From IMG/VR virus record IMGVR_UViG_3300020187_000254, positions 1 through 21,907 of that record: a DNA stretch of 21,907 nucleotides, one strand, 5' to 3'. This document shows positions 8,329 through 21,525 of this stretch, piece after piece. Origin of the DNA: a virus. Every line of letters starts with the position of its first letter. Position 1 is the first letter of the stretch. The position numbers and the translations under genes were made by a program. The notes beneath the pieces are model-generated. The model worked only from the letters and a program-made list of their open reading frames with translations, had not been told where the DNA came from and did no database searches.

Positions 8329-9003
8329 AATTATTAATCTCTTGAGAGTGTAAAGCGTCTAAAACAGTAATAGCCTCTACCTCAAATGACGAAAGTTCAC
8401 CATAAATCTGCATATAAGCAGTAATTTGAGGATAAGTAATACAATCTGGCGCAGAATTTTTTAGTGCGACAAAAATAGACCACAAATATATTAATTTTGG
8501 GTCTAACTTGGGCGCATCTTCTAATTCTTTGGGTTTTTTACCAATAGACTTGGCAACTTGATTAAGATTATCAATACGACTGACTTTTGAGCCTTTATCA
8601 TAGCCACGCGACCAAAATTGCCACTTGGCATACTTAGATAGCTCATTAATCAGCCTTTGATAAAATTTTTCCGGTCGGACACAAACGCATCAATTTGACT
8701 TGCGACACTAGGGGCATTAACGTACAAATCTCTAGCGGCTTCTGGCGAGAAAGGTATTTCTTTTTGCCCTTGAGACAGTCCACGCCATGCTTTAGTAATG
8801 GCAACAATTAGATCAATTTCACCACCCTCTTCTTCAGCAATCAACTTTCTATGATATGCCCTTACAGCCGTTCTATAAGCCTTAGAATCAACACCCTGAA
8901 TGGTTATATAGAAATCGGTTTCTTTGCCGTCTAAGGGGCTTACAATGCGTATTTCAGCCCCTTCCTCATGTGCGTCTACTGTATATAGCGTATTAATGTC
9001 CAT
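8321..9003 (-). CDS. Tail assembly chaperone, -1 frameshift product (G-T type)
   Basis: After the slippery site at 8668-8662 the -1 frame stays open for 113 codons, until TGA at 8323-8321, just past the tape measure ATG. Reading 114 codons in frame 0 and then the -1 frame gives a protein of about 227 residues; the joint reads DRKNF-YQRLINELSKYAKW. The T part includes SRGYDKGSKVSRIDNLNQVA and ends ALHSQEINNYG. It has no good start codon and ribosome-binding site of its own near its 5' end, and it exactly fills the 320-nt space between the short chaperone stop and the tape measure. Lambda gpG/gpGT and most siphoviruses make the same pair to coat the tape measure during tube assembly. The frame and site are seen; use of the frameshift is inferred from the family. 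Confidence 0.87.
8650..9003 (-). CDS. Tail assembly chaperone, short (G-type) form
   Basis: The 117-residue protein lies between the tube protein and tape measure, the standard place for the G chaperone. It is acidic and small (MDINTLYTVDAHEEGAEIRI), with IQGVDSKAYRTAVRAYHRK (about 36-54), a pattern seen in this family. Normal termination is at TGA 8652-8650. Its ribosome-binding site is the GAGG of TAGATCGAGG at 9019-9010, a dispersed copy of the repeat clustered near the holin. It is expected to be made in excess over the frameshifted form and to bind the tape measure before tube polymerisation. Confidence 0.88.
   Translation of the reverse strand: MDINTLYTVDAHEEGAEIRIVSPLDGKETDFYITIQGVDSKAYRTAVRAYHRKLIAEEEGGEIDLIVAITKAWRGLSQGQKEIPFSPEAARDLYVNAPSVASQIDAFVSDRKNFIKG
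8662..8668 (-). promoter_or_regulatory. Programmed -1 ribosomal frameshift site A-AAT-TTT
   Basis: Codons AAA-AAT-TTT-ATC near the end of the short chaperone frame contain the heptamer A AAT TTT, a canonical X XXY YYZ slippery site. It stands four codons before the frame-0 stop, and the -1 frame opens directly into the T domain. I see no strong stem-loop immediately downstream. Confidence 0.85.
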
Positions 9004-9008
9004 TTTAA

Positions 9009-9028
9009 TCCTCGATCTATGAAATTAC
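9009..9028 (-). repeat. Dispersed copy of the TAGATCGAGG element, acting as chaperone ribosome-binding site
   Basis: On the minus strand the tube gene stop TAA is followed by TTTCA and TAGATCGAGG, then ATTAAA and the chaperone ATG. GAGG is well placed as Shine-Dalgarno sequence. The 20-bp block agrees in 19 positions with the array unit at 19914-19933, including the adjoining TAA stop codon. Confidence 0.85.
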
Positions 9029-15336: not shown

Positions 15337-16575
15337 TTAACTCACAAATTTTATAGAAAGGCTGGCGGCTGGTTTGACCACTGGCATTTCGTAGGCTATT
15401 GGATACGTCCCAGCATCGGGGAGGTGATCCAGATTAGATTTTTTATCGGGCGCTCCGTTAGCGTCATAGGCTAATTGTTCAAGACAACGGGCAAACTCAG
15501 GGCAGAGTAACTCGTTAACCTTTACCAGCCCTTTATCAAATGCAACGTTTGCAGCTATAACCCTATCTTTGACTAAGGGGTTTGACTTGTGGGCGTATAC
15601 TGCAAGCCCTGCTGACTGCAATAGGCTTATGTCTGACACTGAGGCATCCACTGTCTTGCGGCTTGCGCCACTCGCATCAGGATAGACGCGGATATGATGT
15701 TTGGGGTATTTCTGTTTGATTGTTGCTATTAGTTCAGGCGTGTCATATATGCCCGTTAGCTCATCGACTGCGTGCCATACGTTATCGCGTACGACATAGC
15801 AAACACCACTCATATTGGTCACGTTGAAATCAACACCGATTGCGATGCGGTCGCGTGGTTGTATCGTTTCACGGCTTGCACATTTCTTGCGCTCGTATGA
15901 CTTGTATACCGTACCAGAGAATAGGTTAACGAATTGACCGTTAAGGTATGCGGCTCTAAGTTCAGGGTTGTATGTATCTGCCAGGGAGTCAATATATCCC
16001 TCTGGTAAATTAGTCTCGTTATCGTATGTGCTGGCCTGAACTAATCCATAGTTGGCTGTTTGATCCATAACAAACCGCTGATAGACGAATTTATAGCCTT
16101 CCGGTGTAGTAGTAACCGATACTCTATTCGGGGCATCTTCCCAGCGTAAACGGCCAATTATTTTATTCCACGCAAGAGAGGCTTTATTCGTATCCATAAC
16201 GTCGATCTCATCGACTAGGGCATTGCCTACCTTAAAACCTACAATTGTCTGTGGTAGCTGCATAGAGCGACAAATAACCGTGCCGCGATAGGTTCGACCA
16301 TTATAGTAGTGTACTTCTTTGTTGCCTTCTCTTATCTCAACCCTCAGACCACAAGCCGCTGCAACCTGCTCTGCTGTTACATAATAGATGTCTCTGATCT
16401 GTGGATAGGACGGGGCAAAGTAAGCCTGGTTAATCTTTGGATACTTCCAAAAGTCTAAGCATTGAGCCACACAACCGATGAACGTTTTCCCCGATCCATA
16501 GCCAGCAACAAAAGCGCGGTACTTATTATCAAGGTTTAAAAACTTACCTTGTGGAACGTTTACTGATATATCCAT
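15337..16575 (-). CDS. terL: Terminase large subunit (packaging ATPase/nuclease)
   Basis: This 412-residue protein carries a Walker A motif AGYGSGKT (24-31), Walker B ALVDEID (119-125) and the coupling motif SVTTTPEG (153-160). The RNase H-like nuclease domain shows acidic residues at GVDFN (D249), YPDASGAS (D300) and NLDHLPDAG (D383/D387). It pumps DNA into the procapsid and cuts the concatemer. The ATG overlaps the TerS stop by 1 nt (TAATG), so the two subunits are co-translated. All expected catalytic motifs are present; length is on the short side for a TerL. Confidence 0.96.
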   Translation of the reverse strand: MDISVNVPQGKFLNLDNKYRAFVAGYGSGKTFIGCVAQCLDFWKYPKINQAYFAPSYPQIRDIYYVTAEQVAAACGLRVEIREGNKEVHYYNGRTYRGTVICRSMQLPQTIVGFKVGNALVDEIDVMDTNKASLAWNKIIGRLRWEDAPNRVSVTTTPEGYKFVYQRFVMDQTANYGLVQASTYDNETNLPEGYIDSLADTYNPELRAAYLNGQFVNLFSGTVYKSYERKKCASRETIQPRDRIAIGVDFNVTNMSGVCYVVRDNVWHAVDELTGIYDTPELIATIKQKYPKHHIRVYPDASGASRKTVDASVSDISLLQSAGLAVYAHKSNPLVKDRVIAANVAFDKGLVKVNELLCPEFARCLEQLAYDANGAPDKKSNLDHLPDAGTYPIAYEMPVVKPAASLSIKFVS

Positions 16576-16955
16576 TAATCAGCTTTACGCGCATCAACTA
16601 TCTCTACCTGTACGCTTTGAGGGGCTGCCCTTTCTTGATCTGCCTCGTTATCGCCCTCGCTCCACTTAAAGCGGTTAGCAAAATACAGTTTGATTAGGCT
16701 TTGGCTACTATCTGAGGCACGGCTTTGCATCATGTCTAAAAACTTGTATTCCCAATACGCCTCGCCAGCTTCTCGCGCGCGCGTAAATGTGTCTGAAAAG
16801 TCGTCATTATCTTCTGCCCATTTGTAAATAGTAGACCTTGCAACGTTTAGCTTTCTCGCTACTTGGACAACAGATAAACCCTCATCCATTAAATCAAACA
16901 CAAGCGCGCCTATGTCTTTTGTGTATTTCGTGGGTCGTCCTATTGGTTTTGACAT
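16575..16955 (-). CDS. terS: Terminase small subunit
   Basis: The 126-residue product starts MSKPIGRPTKYTKD and has a helix-turn-helix at about 27-50 (LSVVQVARKLNVARSTIYKW). An alpha-helical oligomerisation region follows (EAYWEYKFLDMMQSRASDSS, about 67-86, then LIKLYFANRFKW). This is the layout of Sf6 gp1-type small terminases that recognise the packaging site. AAGGT lies 7 nt before the ATG. It is the first gene of the structural block, divergent from the plus-strand cassette. Confidence 0.88.
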   Translation of the reverse strand: MSKPIGRPTKYTKDIGALVFDLMDEGLSVVQVARKLNVARSTIYKWAEDNDDFSDTFTRAREAGEAYWEYKFLDMMQSRASDSSQSLIKLYFANRFKWSEGDNEADQERAAPQSVQVEIVDARKAD

Positions 16956-17084
16956 AACTAGACCTTAAACGGGCCTCAATTGCCCGAAATAGCTGAAAAT
17001 AAATGTATTTTATTGCATTTTTTCTTGTATCTTTAATGTATTTTAGGTACACTAAATGTATAAACAGAAAAGGATTAAAAGATT
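16956..17084. promoter_or_regulatory. Divergent control region between terS and the plus-strand cassette
   Basis: The 129-bp AT-rich region holds AATGTATTTTA twice (17002-17012, 17035-17045) and AATGTATA once (17055-17062), all in the same orientation, a layout expected for regulator-binding sites. A likely plus-strand promoter is TTGTAT (17025-17030), 17 bp, TACACT (17048-17053), with the second and third repeats in the spacer and near the start point. A hairpin CGGGC-7 nt-GCCCG (16970-16986) stands in front of terS; with only TTT behind it on the minus strand it would be a weak terminator. I find no convincing minus-strand promoter for terS. Confidence 0.45.
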
Positions 17085-17339
17085 ATGAAACAGTTACCAG
17101 ATCACCCTATCCAATGCCCAGATGATTTGAATTATCTTTCTAGCTTTAACGCTTACTTAATGGATAACAATCCAGCCAATGAGCCTTGCGATGATTGGAG
17201 CGTTGATTCTAATAATCTTCCCCCCGTTTCACCTATTGAAGTTGCCGAAATGCAACACGAAGTCGAAGCACGTTTAAACCGTGAAGCTGACATTCAACGC
17301 ACCTTAAACCGATACGACAAACGATGGGGGTCTAAATAA
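17085..17339 (+). CDS. Unknown 84-residue acidic protein, first gene of the cassette
   Basis: ATG 17085 follows an AAAAGGATT ribosome-binding site. The protein (MKQLPDHPIQCPDDLNYLSS) is acidic in its first half, with a C-terminal helix rich in Glu and Arg (EVAEMQHEVEARLNREADIQ, about 52-71). I do not recognise a family. It stands just behind the likely early promoter and before ArdA, and its stop overlaps the next start by 1 nt (TAATG). By position it may be an early host-takeover or anti-defence protein, which is inference. Confidence 0.7.
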   Translation: MKQLPDHPIQCPDDLNYLSSFNAYLMDNNPANEPCDDWSVDSNNLPPVSPIEVAEMQHEVEARLNREADIQRTLNRYDKRWGSK

Positions 17340-17443
17340 TGGACGCTTTAGCTATTGCCTTATCTTTCAGTTTTTTAATTATGGCGGCTTTATCGTCGCT
17401 TATTCATCTAGTAAACAAATACTTTAAAGGGGTAAACAAATGA
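17339..17443 (+). CDS. 34-residue single-pass membrane protein
   Basis: A short frame, MDALAIALSFSFLIMAALSS followed by LIHLVNKYFKGVNK, starts in a TAATG overlap with the gene before and ends in an ATGA overlap with ardA. Residues 3-24 form one hydrophobic helix, followed by a basic tail, so it should be an inner-membrane peptide with the C-terminus in the cytoplasm. The tight coupling on both sides argues that it is real. Function unknown; superinfection exclusion or a membrane helper is possible. Confidence 0.7.
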   Translation: MDALAIALSFSFLIMAALSSLIHLVNKYFKGVNK

Positions 17444-17934
17444 GCAATATTACTTACCACAGTCTGTCGGATTACGTGGGCGGCAAATGCATTAGCAAAA
17501 CTTTTGAATTAGATCACGTTACTTTTGAAGTTCATCAAGAAGAAATTAGCGAGTGGCTAACCTCTATCACTAAAGAGCGCAAAGATGGAGAAATCCGCGA
17601 AGAATGGATTGTCTGCGATTATGAAGATATACCGCACGAATATGTCGGAGAATACCACATTGATGAGTCTTTTTTTCACCTTATGTCAGCTATTGACAAC
17701 TCTCATTACGACGCTGAAGTTTTCCACGCTGGCGTTTCTCTCGGTCTTAGTATCGAAAATATTGAAGATAACTATTTTGGTTATTTTTCCGATGAAACCG
17801 AATTGGGCGAAATGTGCGCGGATGGCTTAGAAATTCCCGACAACATTCAGCCTTATTTTGACTATGAAGCATACGGGCGCGCTTGCTCCTATGATTTCAT
17901 GGAATCCGACGGCCACTATTTCTTTAACCATTAA
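17440..17934 (+). CDS. ardA: ArdA-type antirestriction protein (DNA mimic)
   Basis: The 164-residue length is that of ArdA (about 165). The N-terminal SLSDYVGGK (8-16) corresponds to the family's LxxYNxGxL. The signature region follows: ENIEDNYFGYFSDETELGEM (106-125) and EIPDNIQPYFDYEAYGRACS (131-150), ending in DGHYFFNH. The composition is extreme, with 37 Asp/Glu against 7 Lys/Arg, as needed to mimic the charge of B-form DNA. ArdA dimers occupy the DNA groove of type I restriction-modification enzymes and block restriction, often also methylation. ATGA overlap with the membrane peptide gene and AAAGGGG serve its start. The early position fits the need to act soon after DNA entry. Family membership is recognised from motifs; activity is not shown. 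Confidence 0.9.
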   Translation: MSNITYHSLSDYVGGKCISKTFELDHVTFEVHQEEISEWLTSITKERKDGEIREEWIVCDYEDIPHEYVGEYHIDESFFHLMSAIDNSHYDAEVFHAGVSLGLSIENIEDNYFGYFSDETELGEMCADGLEIPDNIQPYFDYEAYGRACSYDFMESDGHYFFNH

Positions 17935-17944
17935 GGGGAAAATT

Positions 17945-18229
17945 ATGACTATCCAGCACTTACCAATGCCTGTAATTGATAACTTTTTAAACGGTGACCC
18001 TTGCGCCATTGGCCCGTTTCGATCTGATGGCGAATACCTATATCTAAATAATGACGCTATCGCATACCGAGACAAATCGGGCAAAGTTTTCAGAATGCAG
18101 CAACCTTCCGCAACACCACCACCTAAAAAGCCGCTTTTTAATCGTTTCATTTCGCTTTTTTCTTGGCCGTTTATCGTTTCATGGTTTGCGGTCACAATCA
18201 TTTTTTTACTTATCACTAACATTTTTTAA
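17945..18229 (+). CDS. Unknown 94-residue protein with C-terminal membrane anchor
   Basis: The start at ATG 17945 (MTIQHLPMPVIDNFLNGDPC) has AAGGGG at the right distance, overlapping the end of ardA's stop region; the open frame extends upstream into ardA but without a site. Residues 1-54 form a small soluble part (GPFRSDGEYLYLNNDAIAYR, 23-42), then a Pro/Ser linker (about 54-63) and one hydrophobic helix (about 72-92) at the extreme C-terminus. This is a tail-anchored layout with the soluble part in the cytoplasm. No family recognised. Confidence 0.75.
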   Translation: MTIQHLPMPVIDNFLNGDPCAIGPFRSDGEYLYLNNDAIAYRDKSGKVFRMQQPSATPPPKKPLFNRFISLFSWPFIVSWFAVTIIFLLITNIF

Positions 18230-18239
18230 GGGGTCAATT

Positions 18240-18416
18240 ATGAATATTAACGTTAAAGAAAAGCCAGATTATTTGGCAACGGTTGAAACGCAATTAAATA
18301 ATATAGCCTGGCATTTACAAGTGTGCAGAGAATCCGACTGCGCGCCAGTTGATGCCGTTATAAAAATGCATATAAAAGCCGCGCACTACGCGCTAATGCT
18401 GCACGATAACCAATAA
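18240..18416 (+). CDS. Unknown 58-residue protein
   Basis: ATG 18240 lies behind AAGGGGTCAATT. The product MNINVKEKPDYLATVETQLN continues with NNIAWHLQVCRESDCAPVDA and ends HYALMLHDNQ; it looks mostly helical. Shape and size resemble many small early phage proteins without known function. Stop and next ribosome-binding site are fused in TAAGGGG, as at other junctions of this operon. Confidence 0.7.
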   Translation: MNINVKEKPDYLATVETQLNNIAWHLQVCRESDCAPVDAVIKMHIKAAHYALMLHDNQ

Positions 18417-18427
18417 GGGGTTAACTA

Positions 18428-18592
18428 ATGCTTAAAATAACCGATGATTTGTATCGAGAAAGTGAATTCTATCAATGGCTAGAAAAACGCCCTGCTAATG
18501 TTTATTGTGATTACAATCCGCATTACGTTGATATGGGGGGCACTAGGGTAACAATTACATTCACAATTGATGATGAAGTAATCGAAGAATAA
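18428..18592 (+). CDS. Unknown 54-residue acidic protein
   Basis: The frame starts at ATG 18428 behind AAGGGGTTAACTA and encodes MLKITDDLYRESEFYQWLEK, a middle part PANVYCDYNPHYVDMGG and an acidic end TFTIDDEVIEE. It is the last gene before the internal terminator. No family recognised. The strong site and consistent spacing support it as a real gene. Confidence 0.68.
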   Translation: MLKITDDLYRESEFYQWLEKRPANVYCDYNPHYVDMGGTRVTITFTIDDEVIEE

Positions 18593-18612
18593 ACCCACCT
18601 CTTAACCACTAC

Positions 18613-18634
18613 AGCCCCTTAAATGGGGCTTTTT
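18613..18634 (+). terminator. Intrinsic terminator inside the cassette
   Basis: AGCCCC-TTAAAT-GGGGCT followed by TTTT forms a perfect 6-bp stem with a U tract on the plus strand. It separates the ardA half of the operon (17085-18592) from the XRE half (18678-19750), so the second half needs readthrough or its own promoter. Confidence 0.85.
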
Positions 18635-18677
18635 GGGTGCAAATACTTTATTATCCGCCAATAAGGAGCATTATATT

Positions 18678-18968
18678 ATGAAAATCAAAACACATAGAGT
18701 AAATAAATCAGGTCTTGAAATGATTCGACAAGAGTTACTTTCTAAATGCAAGCCGAGCGTTTTTGATGGTTGGCTTGACGATGATTTGATCAATAGCAAA
18801 AGTGCACAAGAAATGCTAGGCGCTTGGGCTAGTGAAATTGAATCGGCGCTCGATGCTGGCAATGGCGATTTTGTGGAAATAAGTTCTTCTGACACAAAGT
18901 CAGGCCATGTTGAACATTTAGAAATAGATGACAGCGGCATTGATGTTGGGTTTGAACAGTATGAATAA
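18678..18968 (+). CDS. Unknown 96-residue acidic protein
   Basis: ATG 18678 has the strong site AAGGAG. The protein (MKIKTHRVNKSGLEMIRQEL) has a basic N-terminus of about 12 residues, a helical middle (SAQEMLGAWASEIESALDAG, about 38-57) and a strongly acidic C-terminal third (HLEIDDSGIDVGFEQYE). It is the first gene after the internal terminator. No family recognised; the acidic C-terminal part could be another protein-binding or DNA-mimic surface, which is speculation. Confidence 0.75.
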   Translation: MKIKTHRVNKSGLEMIRQELLSKCKPSVFDGWLDDDLINSKSAQEMLGAWASEIESALDAGNGDFVEISSSDTKSGHVEHLEIDDSGIDVGFEQYE

Positions 18969-19233
18969 AACCGCTGATTATGTTAACCGCTTAGTCGATA
19001 ACAACGCATTAAATGCCAAATTAACAGCAAAACAAAAGACCGTTAAAAAGGTAGAGGCTGCCTTATCTGAGGGCATTTTCAACAAGTGGCAATCGTATAG
19101 CCTTGTTTTTAGCTTAGTTGATAAACGCAAAATTACCCTACGTAAAGTCTGCGAGATTGCCGAATTAAACGGCATTCCTTCAGAGGTCATTAAAATGCGT
19201 CGAAGGGATTTAAATCAACTCAATAAAGGCTAA
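18961..19233 (+). CDS. Unknown 90-residue basic protein
   Basis: The ATG lies within the last codons of the gene before (8-nt overlap ATGAATAA). The product begins MNKTADYVNRLVDNNALNAK and is Lys/Arg-rich, with a helical pattern in KITLRKVCEIAELNGIPSEV (about 57-76), which could be a helix-turn-helix, and a basic end KMRRRDLNQLNKG. A nucleic-acid-binding role is plausible. No family recognised. Confidence 0.7.
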   Translation: MNKTADYVNRLVDNNALNAKLTAKQKTVKKVEAALSEGIFNKWQSYSLVFSLVDKRKITLRKVCEIAELNGIPSEVIKMRRRDLNQLNKG

Positions 19234-19235
19234 TA

Positions 19236-19391
19236 ATGATTAAAACCGTAATTCCCAATGCTGAGATCAGGGACGCTGCGCGCGATCTTATAGCCTCTCT
19301 AACGGCTGATGGCTGCACAGATTCACATTTTCTGGCAGAACTTCAAAAACTAGCAGACGGGCAACCAATGCCAAAAAAGGTTAAAAAATGA
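19236..19391 (+). CDS. Unknown 51-residue protein
   Basis: ATG 19236 follows the previous stop by 2 nt with AAAGG upstream. The product is MIKTVIPNAEIRDAARDLIA, SLTADGCTDSHFLAELQKLA and a basic tail PMPKKVKK. It ends in an ATGA overlap with the next gene. It looks like two amphipathic helices. Function unknown. Confidence 0.62.
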   Translation: MIKTVIPNAEIRDAARDLIASLTADGCTDSHFLAELQKLADGQPMPKKVKK

Positions 19392-19561
19392 AACTATCAA
19401 ACGATGAACTAATTAAAATAATCACCGAAAACGCCCACAGGTTATGTATTTTTTATATAACTGATGAGGGGGGCCATTTAGAGTCTTTAGATGTAACCAA
19501 CCCTGCATCCATCAACGGGAACTCTATCCAGTTAAACTGCGAAACAACAAAAGGCGATTAA
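19388..19561 (+). CDS. Unknown 57-residue protein
   Basis: The frame starts in the ATGA overlap with the gene before and ends directly at the XRE start (TAAATG). The product MKLSNDELIKIITENAHRLC continues IFYITDEGGHLESLDVTNPA and ends LNCETTKGD. No family recognised. Continuous coupling with its neighbours supports it. Confidence 0.62.
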   Translation: MKLSNDELIKIITENAHRLCIFYITDEGGHLESLDVTNPASINGNSIQLNCETTKGD

Positions 19562-19750
19562 ATGGAAAACGAATTTATTAGGGAGGCGCGTTTTAAGTTG
19601 CGCCTGACACAAGAAGAACTAGCGAACCAATTAGGCTGCACTAAACAAACGATACATTTTGCAGAATCAGGCAAACGGGACGCAAAAATCACGTTACTGC
19701 TAGCAATTGAATGTTTATTAAGACGCGCTGGCAAATGGCCTATAAATTAG
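19562..19750 (+). CDS. XRE/Cro-type helix-turn-helix regulator
   Basis: The 62-residue protein is little more than a single HTH_3 domain: RLTQEELANQLGCTKQTIHF (about 14-33) contains helices 2 and 3, with Q-T-I-H as the recognition part, and LLAIECLLR closes the fold. Small XRE proteins like this (Cro and DUF-like regulators) dimerise on operator DNA. As last gene of the cassette it could repress the promoter at 17025-17053 or bind the repeat array that begins 26 bp after its stop. Both are inference. Confidence 0.85.
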   Translation: MENEFIREARFKLRLTQEELANQLGCTKQTIHFAESGKRDAKITLLLAIECLLRRAGKWPIN

Positions 19751-19758
19751 GCTTTTTT
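19738..19758 (+). terminator. Intrinsic terminator overlapping the XRE stop codon
   Basis: GCCTA-TAAAT-TAGGC followed by TTTTTT on the plus strand; the TAG of the stem is the stop codon of the XRE gene. A second U run follows closely (19762-19769). Confidence 0.75.
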
Positions 19759-19775
19759 GGCCTTTTTTTGTGTCT

Positions 19776-19924
19776 ACCTCGATCTAGCGGCAAATTTTGC
19801 CTTTTTTCGTACCCACCTCGATCTAGTGGCAATCTTGCGTGCCTGTAAACTACCTCGATCTAGCGGCAAACCACCTCGATCTATTAAAGCACCTCGATCT
19901 AGCGGCAACGTGTACCTCGATCTA
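19776..19924 (-). repeat. Array of six direct repeats, TAGATCGAGGT
   Basis: The plus-strand sequence ACCTCGATCTA occurs six times without mismatch, at 19776, 19815, 19852, 19873, 19891 and 19914 (start to start 39, 37, 21, 18 and 23 bp). Four copies (1, 2, 3, 5) continue G(C/T)GGCAA, giving an 18-bp unit; copies 4 and 6 continue TATTAAA and TATGAAA. Every unit holds GATC and TCGA, and the 18-bp type also CTAG. The array lies in the 179-bp space between convergent operons, with T-rich DNA at its left side. Possible roles are replication-origin iterons, binding sites for a phage repressor or the neighbouring XRE protein, or a packaging site. Regular spacers of CRISPR type are absent. No known phage site with this sequence comes to mind. 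Confidence 0.95.
19789..19807 (+). terminator. Second terminator, built on the first array unit
   Basis: GGCAA-ATT-TTGCC followed by TTTTTT on the plus strand. The left arm GGCAA is the end of the first 18-bp repeat unit. With the terminator at 19738 it stops plus-strand transcription before the minus-strand lysis genes; nothing comparable faces the other way. Confidence 0.6.
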
Positions 19925-19929
19925 TGAAA

Positions 19930-20097
19930 TTACTTGCGCTTAATTACATCTTGAACGGTTTTGCTTTCATATATGCGAATGCCTAACCAAATAATTGTAA
20001 AAAGACTTGCTGTTGGCGGCAACCAAGTAGCTAACGACATGATACCAGTGCTTGCAGCGGCTATATCAATCAAATCTTTGTCCTGATTATCCAACAT
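19930..20097 (-). CDS. Holin, small single-helix type
   Basis: The 55-residue frame starts at ATG 20097 inside the end of the endolysin gene (11-nt overlap, ATGTTGGATAA). An acidic N-terminus (MLDNQDKDLIDIAAAS) precedes a hydrophobic stretch (about 18-42, SLATWLPPTASLFTIIWLGI within it) and a charged end RIYESKTVQDVIKRK. This WLP...IWLGIRIYE..TVQ pattern is common in small holins of marine and T7-like phages. It would form the inner-membrane lesion that releases the endolysin. No spanin gene is seen next to it. Its stop is followed by TTTCA and the first array unit. Confidence 0.78.
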   Translation of the reverse strand: MLDNQDKDLIDIAAASTGIMSLATWLPPTASLFTIIWLGIRIYESKTVQDVIKRK

Positions 20098-20545
20098 AAG
20101 GCTCACCGAAATCCAAGGAGTCTGTATCAAACAGAATCGCCTCACACCTCCGTCTACGAGTCAGCCCTGCTAGGACTTTACCGCTTGCCTTGTCCCATCT
20201 TACGATTTGCTCAGATACTTTGTCGTACTTACCTTCGTTTAACACTTTAAGCAACGTACTCGATCTTAAATTTCCACACCCTAAATTAAACGTCCATGAC
20301 AAAATCGCATCCCATTGATGCTGATTTAGTTCAACAGTCACAAGGCTTTCAACCTGAGATTCTATTTCTTCAATATCTTGTATAAGCAATTCATCTGCTT
20401 TTTCTTGAGAAATCTCACCGTTTTCGATCACATTTCTTGTGTGACCCCAACCCCAGGTTAAAACACCCCCAGCGCATTCGTAGGCTTTAAGTTCACAGCC
20501 CTCAAAATGCTTAATCAGGTCTAAACCTGCTGCGGAAGTTTTCAT
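20087..20545 (-). CDS. Endolysin, T4-type lysozyme (GH24)
   Basis: The start at ATG 20545 (MKTSAAGLDLIKHFEGCELK) gives 152 residues that begin exactly as GH24 lysozymes do. Its AAGG site is only 2 nt away, and an in-frame GTG at 20626 would add 27 residues of no family character. Catalytic Glu is E15 (HFEG). Thr is T30 and His is H35 in TWGWGHT, matching T26 and H31 of T4 lysozyme. The position of the catalytic Asp (T4 D20) is Cys24 (AYECAGG), as in some other phage lysozymes. DAILSWTFNLGCGNLRSSTL (about 79-98) and RWDKASGKVLAGLTRRRRCE (about 116-135) complete the fold. No signal peptide, so it needs the holin encoded next. Confidence 0.93.
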   Translation of the reverse strand: MKTSAAGLDLIKHFEGCELKAYECAGGVLTWGWGHTRNVIENGEISQEKADELLIQDIEEIESQVESLVTVELNQHQWDAILSWTFNLGCGNLRSSTLLKVLNEGKYDKVSEQIVRWDKASGKVLAGLTRRRRCEAILFDTDSLDFGEPYVG

Positions 20546-20652: not shown

Positions 20653-20677
20653 AAAAAAACCGCCAATGAAGGCGGTC
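20653..20677 (-). terminator. Intrinsic terminator in the late leader (tR'-like)
   Basis: On the minus strand GACCGCC-TTCATT-GGCGG is followed by TTTTTTT. A GC-rich stem of five to six pairs and a seven-base U tract make it strong. It would end the pR' transcript after about 65 nt unless the polymerase has been modified by Q. Confidence 0.9.
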
Positions 20678-20724
20678 TTAAAGAGGAGGTCAGCCGAAAA
20701 ATTTAGAAAACGGCTATGCTAGAA

Positions 20725-20753
20725 ATTAAATCATATTTTTGATTGACTGTCAA
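20725..20753 (-). promoter_or_regulatory. Sigma70 late promoter (pR'-like)
   Basis: TTGACA (20753-20748), a 17-bp spacer and TTTAAT (20730-20725) on the minus strand give a near-consensus promoter 27 bp after the Q stop. Q-binding elements of lambdoid phages lie between -35 and -10; the spacer here has AATCAAAAATATGA. Confidence 0.85.
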
Positions 20754-20780: not shown

Positions 20781-21314
20781 TTACCTCAATCTATTAAATA
20801 TTATGTGATTAATTGTTTCATCTCTTTCAGAATGTTTACTTTGCAATAATGCAAACCGTTTTTTCCATACTTTTCTTGATTGAAATAACGTTACACCTAA
20901 TATTTTAGCCAAATTTCTTTCGCTTACTGTTCGATTGCCAAGTCCGTTACAAGCGCCACAAATTTCAACTTTTGACATTAGTTTTATCTCGCCAACCCCT
21001 TTACATCGTTTGCACTTATAGGGGTTTATAGCAACTTCTAAGGCCGCAAGCGCAAGAACCGCAACCGTTCTATTAGTTTCCTCTTTATTAAGCTTAAAAC
21101 CGCACTGAATGGCCTCTTTTACGGCAAGTGCGTTCAACTCTGCCCTACTGTTGTTGTCTAAGGCAAACTTGCTCAAACTATACAGATACGTCAACCTATC
21201 AAGACCTGTTAAGCAAGCCGCTATATCTTGCGATGTCAGCCTACCTAGCCCCGTCGATCTAACTGAATCCATTGGTGGAGCGCCTGGAGCAAGCATTGCC
21301 ATCAACTCACTCAT
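20781..21314 (-). CDS. Q: Late antiterminator Q
   Basis: I start at ATG 21314 (MSELMAMLAPGAPPMDSVRS), which overlaps the gene before by 8 nt (ATGAGTGA), giving 177 residues; lambda Q has 207. Two CxxCxGxG knuckles, CKRCKGVG (101-108) and CGACNGLG (119-126), form the zinc-binding site of Q. The C-terminal part (WKKRFALLQSKHSERDETIN, 150-169) matches lambda Q in layout (W..TVKPLYDALVVQCHKEES). The helical stretch NRTVAVLALAALEVAINPYK (81-100) precedes the knuckles as in Q. Q loads on RNA polymerase paused near the late promoter and lets it pass terminators. The promoter and terminator found right behind the gene support the call strongly. The last codons (AATAGATTGAGGTAA) contain a diverged copy of the array repeat. 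Confidence 0.88.
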   Translation of the reverse strand: MSELMAMLAPGAPPMDSVRSTGLGRLTSQDIAACLTGLDRLTYLYSLSKFALDNNSRAELNALAVKEAIQCGFKLNKEETNRTVAVLALAALEVAINPYKCKRCKGVGEIKLMSKVEICGACNGLGNRTVSERNLAKILGVTLFQSRKVWKKRFALLQSKHSERDETINHIIFNRLR

Positions 21315-21525
21315 CAACAACAGCCATTGTAGGGTTATGGGCTGCAACATCATCTTCAGATGGAGGTAATTGTTTCATTCTTACCATAATTTCATCAGAA
21401 AGCCCTCGCAATGCGTTTGATCGCACATCACCTTTAGCGGTTCTCATAATATTCCAGTATTTGGAAATTAAGTCATACCAATCATTGTCTAAACAGGCGT
21501 TAAAATCAGCTTCAAAATCAACCAT
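21307..21525 (-). CDS. Unknown 72-residue acidic protein upstream of Q
   Basis: ATG 21525 lies behind AGCGAGGATTGATA and overlaps the previous stop by 8 nt (ATGGTTGA). The product starts MVDFEADFNACLDNDWYDLI, has a helical middle (ISKYWNIMRTAKGDVRSNAL, about 20-39) and an acidic end PPSEDDVAAHNPTMAVVDE. No family recognised. Translation is coupled to Q, so it may be another early regulator. Confidence 0.72.
   Translation of the reverse strand: MVDFEADFNACLDNDWYDLISKYWNIMRTAKGDVRSNALRGLSDEIMVRMKQLPPSEDDVAAHNPTMAVVDE

Follow-up and report, generated by a model that had tools for sequence, protein, structure and literature searches.

The virus record IMGVR_UViG_3300020187_000254, a linear sequence of 21907 bases (the window, analysed here at its full length), raises the question of how late transcription reaches the packaging genes and of what turns off the genes lying across its path. 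On the minus strand, the genes for a Q-like antiterminator, a lysozyme and a small lysis protein are followed by a gap and then by terS, terL and the portal gene. The gap (16956-19929, about 3 kb, from the end of the lysis gene at 19930 to the start of terS at 16955) holds 11 genes on the plus strand. The initial annotation named terS as the next minus-strand gene past the lysis genes, as is the case, since every gene called in 17085-19750 is on the plus strand. It proposed that polymerase modified by Q runs through the gap and silences the opposing genes by antisense RNA and collision, giving an early-to-late switch without a dedicated repressor. That description did not include a promoter on the plus strand, a possible regulatory role for the HTH gene that ends the cassette, or a repeat array.

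Features of the late region

The features of the window are listed in Table 1. Searches for close relatives among named phages by megablast gave none, and Q was also without a match there. The best identity of TerL was 54%, to Escherichia phages, one of them a Kagunavirus, and no TerL relatives were found in the genome collection searched. A family search with the small lysis-module gene gave no match, and an Rfam search of the window returned no RNA family.

Table 1. Positions, strands and supporting evidence for the features of the late region and the antisense cassette.
Feature	Position	Strand	Evidence
terS, small terminase	16575-16955	-	phrog_309, 4.3e-17; PF20901, 37.6 bits
terS leader hairpin	16970-16986	-	by eye; stem varies yet pairs in several relatives
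Cassette promoter TTGTAT-17-TACACT	17025-17053	+	relative place among loci (see text)
Candidate operator TTTAATGTA-N7-TACACTAAA over core promoter	17032-17056	+	inverted repeat, 8/9 positions pair
c1, first cassette gene	17085-17339	+	comparison of 14 cassettes
c3, ArdA antirestriction protein	17440-17934	+	PF07275, 57.1 bits (cut-off 27)
Conserved mid-cassette terminator	18613-18630	+	terminator scan, relatives
c11, 62-aa HTH_3 protein, candidate cassette repressor (Aca-like)	19562-19750	+	PF01381, 36.3 bits (cut-off 23)
Terminator overlapping c11 stop codon	19737-19753	+	terminator scan; conserved in relatives
Array of 6 exact TAGATCGAGGT repeats (plus strand ACCTCGATCTA)	19776-19924	-	convergent gap; strand-polar
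Small lysis-module gene	19930-20145	-	holin-like by position only; ORF kept beside lysin or Q in relatives
Endolysin (phage lysozyme)	20087-20626	-	PF00959, 152 bits
tR'-like terminator below late promoter	20656-20679	-	terminator scan
Q-type late promoter TTGACA-17-TTTAAT, conserved spacer TCAATCAAAAAT	20725-20753	-	sole pattern match in window
Q-like antitermination protein gene	20781-21353	-	phrog_127, E 1.3e-7

Late promoter and transcription of terS

The Q-type promoter pattern had one match in the window and none in 100 shuffles. Segments below Q were supplied by 16 loci, two of which yielded identical segments, leaving 14 distinct ones; by eye, the spacer motif [TC]CAA[TC]CAAAA was kept in 13 of these, the exception being L114. 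A T-tailed hairpin was seen, again by eye, at the place of tR' in 10 of the 13 promoter-bearing segments, and the remaining three end before that place. The locus has the anatomy of a Q-dependent late operon, with a Q gene, a promoter with a conserved spacer and a terminator just downstream, and Q presumably acts here by antitermination. A hidden Q-type late promoter for terS was considered and rejected, as the motif occurs only at the position given in Table 1.

The gap was then considered from the side of terS. The terminator scan gave two weak sites on the minus strand and five on the plus strand (shuffle mean 1.43, sd 1.09 per strand); minus-strand sites in 12 relatives were weak and had no shared place across types. 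The claim that no minus-strand terminator lies in the gap was therefore borne out, in that the two sites are weak, unconserved and near shuffle level. The same holds for the claim that no convincing sigma70 promoter precedes terS: the best minus-strand site in the 122-nt region of the window scored no better than shuffles (p 0.66), and in 20 loci, window included, the best sites were scattered 14-128 nt from terS.

With neither a conserved terS promoter nor a conserved minus-strand terminator, read-through from the late promoter would be the simplest route to terS expression. Given the conserved Q-type promoter and terminator, and the same gene order in the relatives seen, late polymerase running through into terS, as the initial annotation had it, is the best reading, and late transcription probably crosses the cassette antisense to reach the packaging genes. 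It is unlikely that terS instead has its own promoter of a type missed by the scan, in which case late transcription need not cross the cassette. The scan was limited to sigma70, and parts of the leader next to terS are conserved, with a hairpin in which pairing changes occur (the hairpin has too few T for a good terminator); against such a promoter, the best minus-strand sites have no fixed place in the 20 loci and the Q-type motif is found once only in the window.

Composition of the antisense cassette

Fourteen cassettes were compared, all of them antisense to terS. The c1 family was present in 14/14, the c4 family in 13/14 and the c11 HTH family in 12/14 (missing from L013 and L018). The 14 contigs together held 59 gene families, 27 of them found in a single contig; in these counts family F4 is an ORF lying across the repeat array that is probably no gene, and one single-contig family includes unread letters. 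An ArdA antirestriction gene was found in 7 of the 14 cassettes. Most other cassette proteins scanned had no family match, and NCBIfam gave no known anti-CRISPR family among the 10 cassette proteins scanned (c1-c7 and c9-c11).

Judged by gene content across these contigs, 17085-19750 is an accessory cassette of variable content between fixed ends. It has the marks of a moron in a late operon, namely a promoter of its own (recognized by position), terminators, insertion within an operon and a content that varies among relatives. A conserved stretch (GGGTG...) follows the mid-cassette terminator (18613-18660), with no clear promoter behind it; this region may tune the level of c11.

Repeat array in the convergent gap

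Allowing up to two mismatches, TAGATCGAGGT had 23 matches in the window, against 3.4 expected. The arrays of relatives have the same orientation, which is that of late transcription; in the L040 and L044 phages the copies use the variant TAGATCGGGGT. In several loci, copies of the motif outside the array coincide with the ribosome-binding site of Q or a structural gene. Of 156 distinct places, 19 have, 3-12 nt downstream, a start codon opening an ORF of 40 aa or more, and some of these ORFs run over the array itself. In the window, a copy with one mismatch (9009-9019) is at the ribosome-binding site of the gene at 8650-9003(-), and the motif precedes Q in L007, L008, L011 and L017.

In L017, a CsrA-family gene (PF02599, 56.5 bits) lies between array copies, 4048-4417 nt from terS on the cassette strand; L018 and L008 have a different gene (F24) at that position. 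Elsewhere in the late region of the window, three to four direct repeats of 30 nt were noted at 2153-2272.

The c11 protein

A further 20 viral contigs carry homologues of c11, with identities of 60-98%; named phages gave weak repressor-like matches only. The alignment of the protein with 434 repressor and Cro spans residues 6-40, or nearly so. Its AlphaFold model (pLDDT 92) places helix 3 at residues 28-36, and fold matches, none with E below 0.001, included P22 c2, 434 Cro and Aca2. The protein is conserved at its ends and variable around helix 3. From these features c11 is predicted to be a 434/P22-type repressor that binds at, and represses, the cassette.

As with the regulators of acr-aca operons, c11 is small and has an HTH_3 domain scoring above the cut-off, and its gene is the last conserved one of the cassette. 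We refrain from calling it an Aca, as the search gave no known acr gene and its binding is a prediction.

Cassette promoter, candidate operator and co-variation with c11

In 16 of the 20 loci (window included), the best plus-strand promoter in the region between terS and the cassette occupied the same relative position. The score in the window alone does not beat shuffles (p 0.37) and single scores are mostly at shuffle level, so that it is the fixed position that carries the evidence. Inverted repeats were found within the core promoter in the window and in several other types; their centre and spacing vary between types, the best repeats differing in centre, and the operator is no single clean motif.

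The c11 sequence was compared with the core promoter by an exact Mantel test. L004 represented the window, L022 and L026; L011 represented L042, L014 represented L133, and L012 represented L020. L106 and L040 have identical c11, and L106 was taken. Loci were left out if they had no c11 (L013 and L018), if the terS end was missing (L007, L023, L024, L108 and L114) or if the c11 end was missing (L043 and L027-L036, other than L034, whose contig is also that of L008). With 8 independent haplotypes only, and with slices and word lengths picked after looking, the recognition region of c11 (residues 26-42) correlated with the core promoter (r 0.45, 94/40320 permutations, P = 0.002), against P 0.10 for the N-terminal and P 0.11 for the C-terminal part in the same comparison. 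As a control, the terS-side leader was compared with the recognition region (P 0.89). For the recognition region, P stayed within 0.0008-0.029 across all 15 settings. The C-terminus also correlated with short words of 11 (P 0.007-0.017) and at core 60, word 15 (0.024), and the N-terminus with some long words (20, or 17 at core length 40; P 0.015-0.039).

In the pair L008 and L014 the recognition region is identical (17/17) and a promoter word is shared at 13/15 positions, with different N-termini; this common word sits on opposite strands and at different places. The pair L004 and L106 is a misfit, sharing 94% of the recognition region and a promoter word at only 12/15.

These results bear on two other accounts. 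It could be that the off-switch consists of late antisense RNA together with colliding polymerases, with no dedicated repressor. The conserved antisense placement and the lack of a conserved minus-strand terminator make late antisense RNA likely, but co-variation of a cassette-borne protein with the promoter is unexpected if no protein reads that promoter, and we regard this account as quite improbable. The postulate of a switch free of a dedicated repressor is contradicted by the co-variation of the c11 recognition helix with the core promoter. Alternatively, c11 might have its target elsewhere than at the cassette promoter, as an antitoxin or in some other regulatory role, its co-variation coming from shared ancestry of whole cassettes. 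Its best weak NCBIfam matches, far below cut-off, include HipB- and MqsA-type antitoxins; against this, the neighbouring c10 (family F14) occurs in 3/14 cassettes, compared with 12/14 for c11, and the terS-side leader does not co-vary with c11. This account is, on the whole, rather unlikely, and an antitoxin role as such was rejected, c11 not being tied to one partner gene.

A local exchange at both cassette ends

Shared ancestry was further weighed on a natural swap. Around the promoter, L009 is close to L022 and L004, yet its c11 is of another type, with 68% identity to the window protein and unlike that of its neighbours. Between L009 and L022, the sequences immediately flanking c11 are nearly identical on both sides, as is the sequence between promoter and terS. 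Differences between these two were concentrated in the core promoter (8/32, against 4/128 beside it; Fisher P 3e-4), which was not so for the A-type pair L022 and L004 (2/32 against 12/128; P 0.82). The swap is thus local at both cassette ends, which argues against shared ancestry of whole cassettes. By sequence comparison, the core of the promoter and the recognition helix of c11 have changed together, about 2 kb apart, and such joint change is what the model of a cassette-borne repressor predicts.

Discussion

We consider it probable that the locus is an antisense moron of the anti-defence type placed in a late operon, repressed by c11 and crossed by late transcription. The sigma70-type promoter (17025-17053) would fire the cassette, presumably early. 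c11, encoded by the last gene, would then bind the inverted repeat over this promoter and shut it down, as Aca proteins do. Late transcription would begin at the single Q-type promoter (20753-20725) and pass tR' once Q is made, and the RNA would continue via the lysis genes and the repeat array, then antisense through the cassette, to terS, terL and the head genes. Late antisense RNA may further silence the cassette, as a second layer. Of the interpretation first put forward for this DNA, late read-through into terS is retained and the absence of a dedicated repressor is given up.

A literature search found no description of this layout. Parts of it have precedents. In phage lambda (J02459), an ORF that follows Rz on the opposite strand (46459-46752(-)) is presumably bor, and late RNA is generally taken to cross bor. 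The present cassette is likewise a moron opposite to the late-gene strand, between lysis and packaging genes. To our knowledge the bor locus is a single gene with no HTH autoregulator, whereas here there are 11 genes, including an HTH protein.

The c11 cassette resembles acr-aca operons in its small accessory genes and the small HTH gene downstream, so far as those operons are described in PMC9410906. The candidate inverted repeat within the core promoter may be a further likeness, with the variation in centre and spacing between types given above. Aca proteins are presented there as small HTH repressors whose genes close acr operons and whose binding sites are inverted repeats in the core promoter; Aca6, 7 and 9 are HTH_3 proteins of 65-69 aa (PMC9410906, Table 1). 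Unlike in those operons, no known acr family was found here, and c11 was matched to no Aca family.

The ant moron of P22-like phages, in the account of PMC2629481, is a variable cassette that sits within the late operon and brings its own repressors; late polymerase is believed to read through it to the tailspike gene, affecting the level of tailspike. On that account, the present locus is like the P22 immI region in having a variable cassette in a late operon, here with a candidate repressor and probably read through. The P22 cassette precedes the tailspike gene and carries mnt, arc, ant and sar, whereas the one described here lies between lysis and terS, with ArdA-type genes and one HTH protein. 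Given the P22, acr-aca and lambda precedents, the layout therefore joins known kinds, and by analogy it seems to resemble known phage cassettes more than a repressor-free switch.

One further idea is offered tentatively, and we hold it to be doubtful. The c11 repressors and their operators might form interchangeable specificity groups, like those of phage heteroimmunity, such that, in a shared cell, an incoming phage of another group would still activate its anti-defence cassette despite the repressor of the resident. Selection would keep exchanging helix and operator jointly, at opposite ends of a cassette that late RNA crosses antisense.

Most of the cassette families scanned are without known function, and the c1 and c11 ends offer an anchor for finding anti-defence genes in uncultured phages. 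The cassettes also lend themselves, as a natural series, to tests of how repressor and operator change in step, and they offer a case of genes on which a protein repressor may act alongside late antisense transcription.
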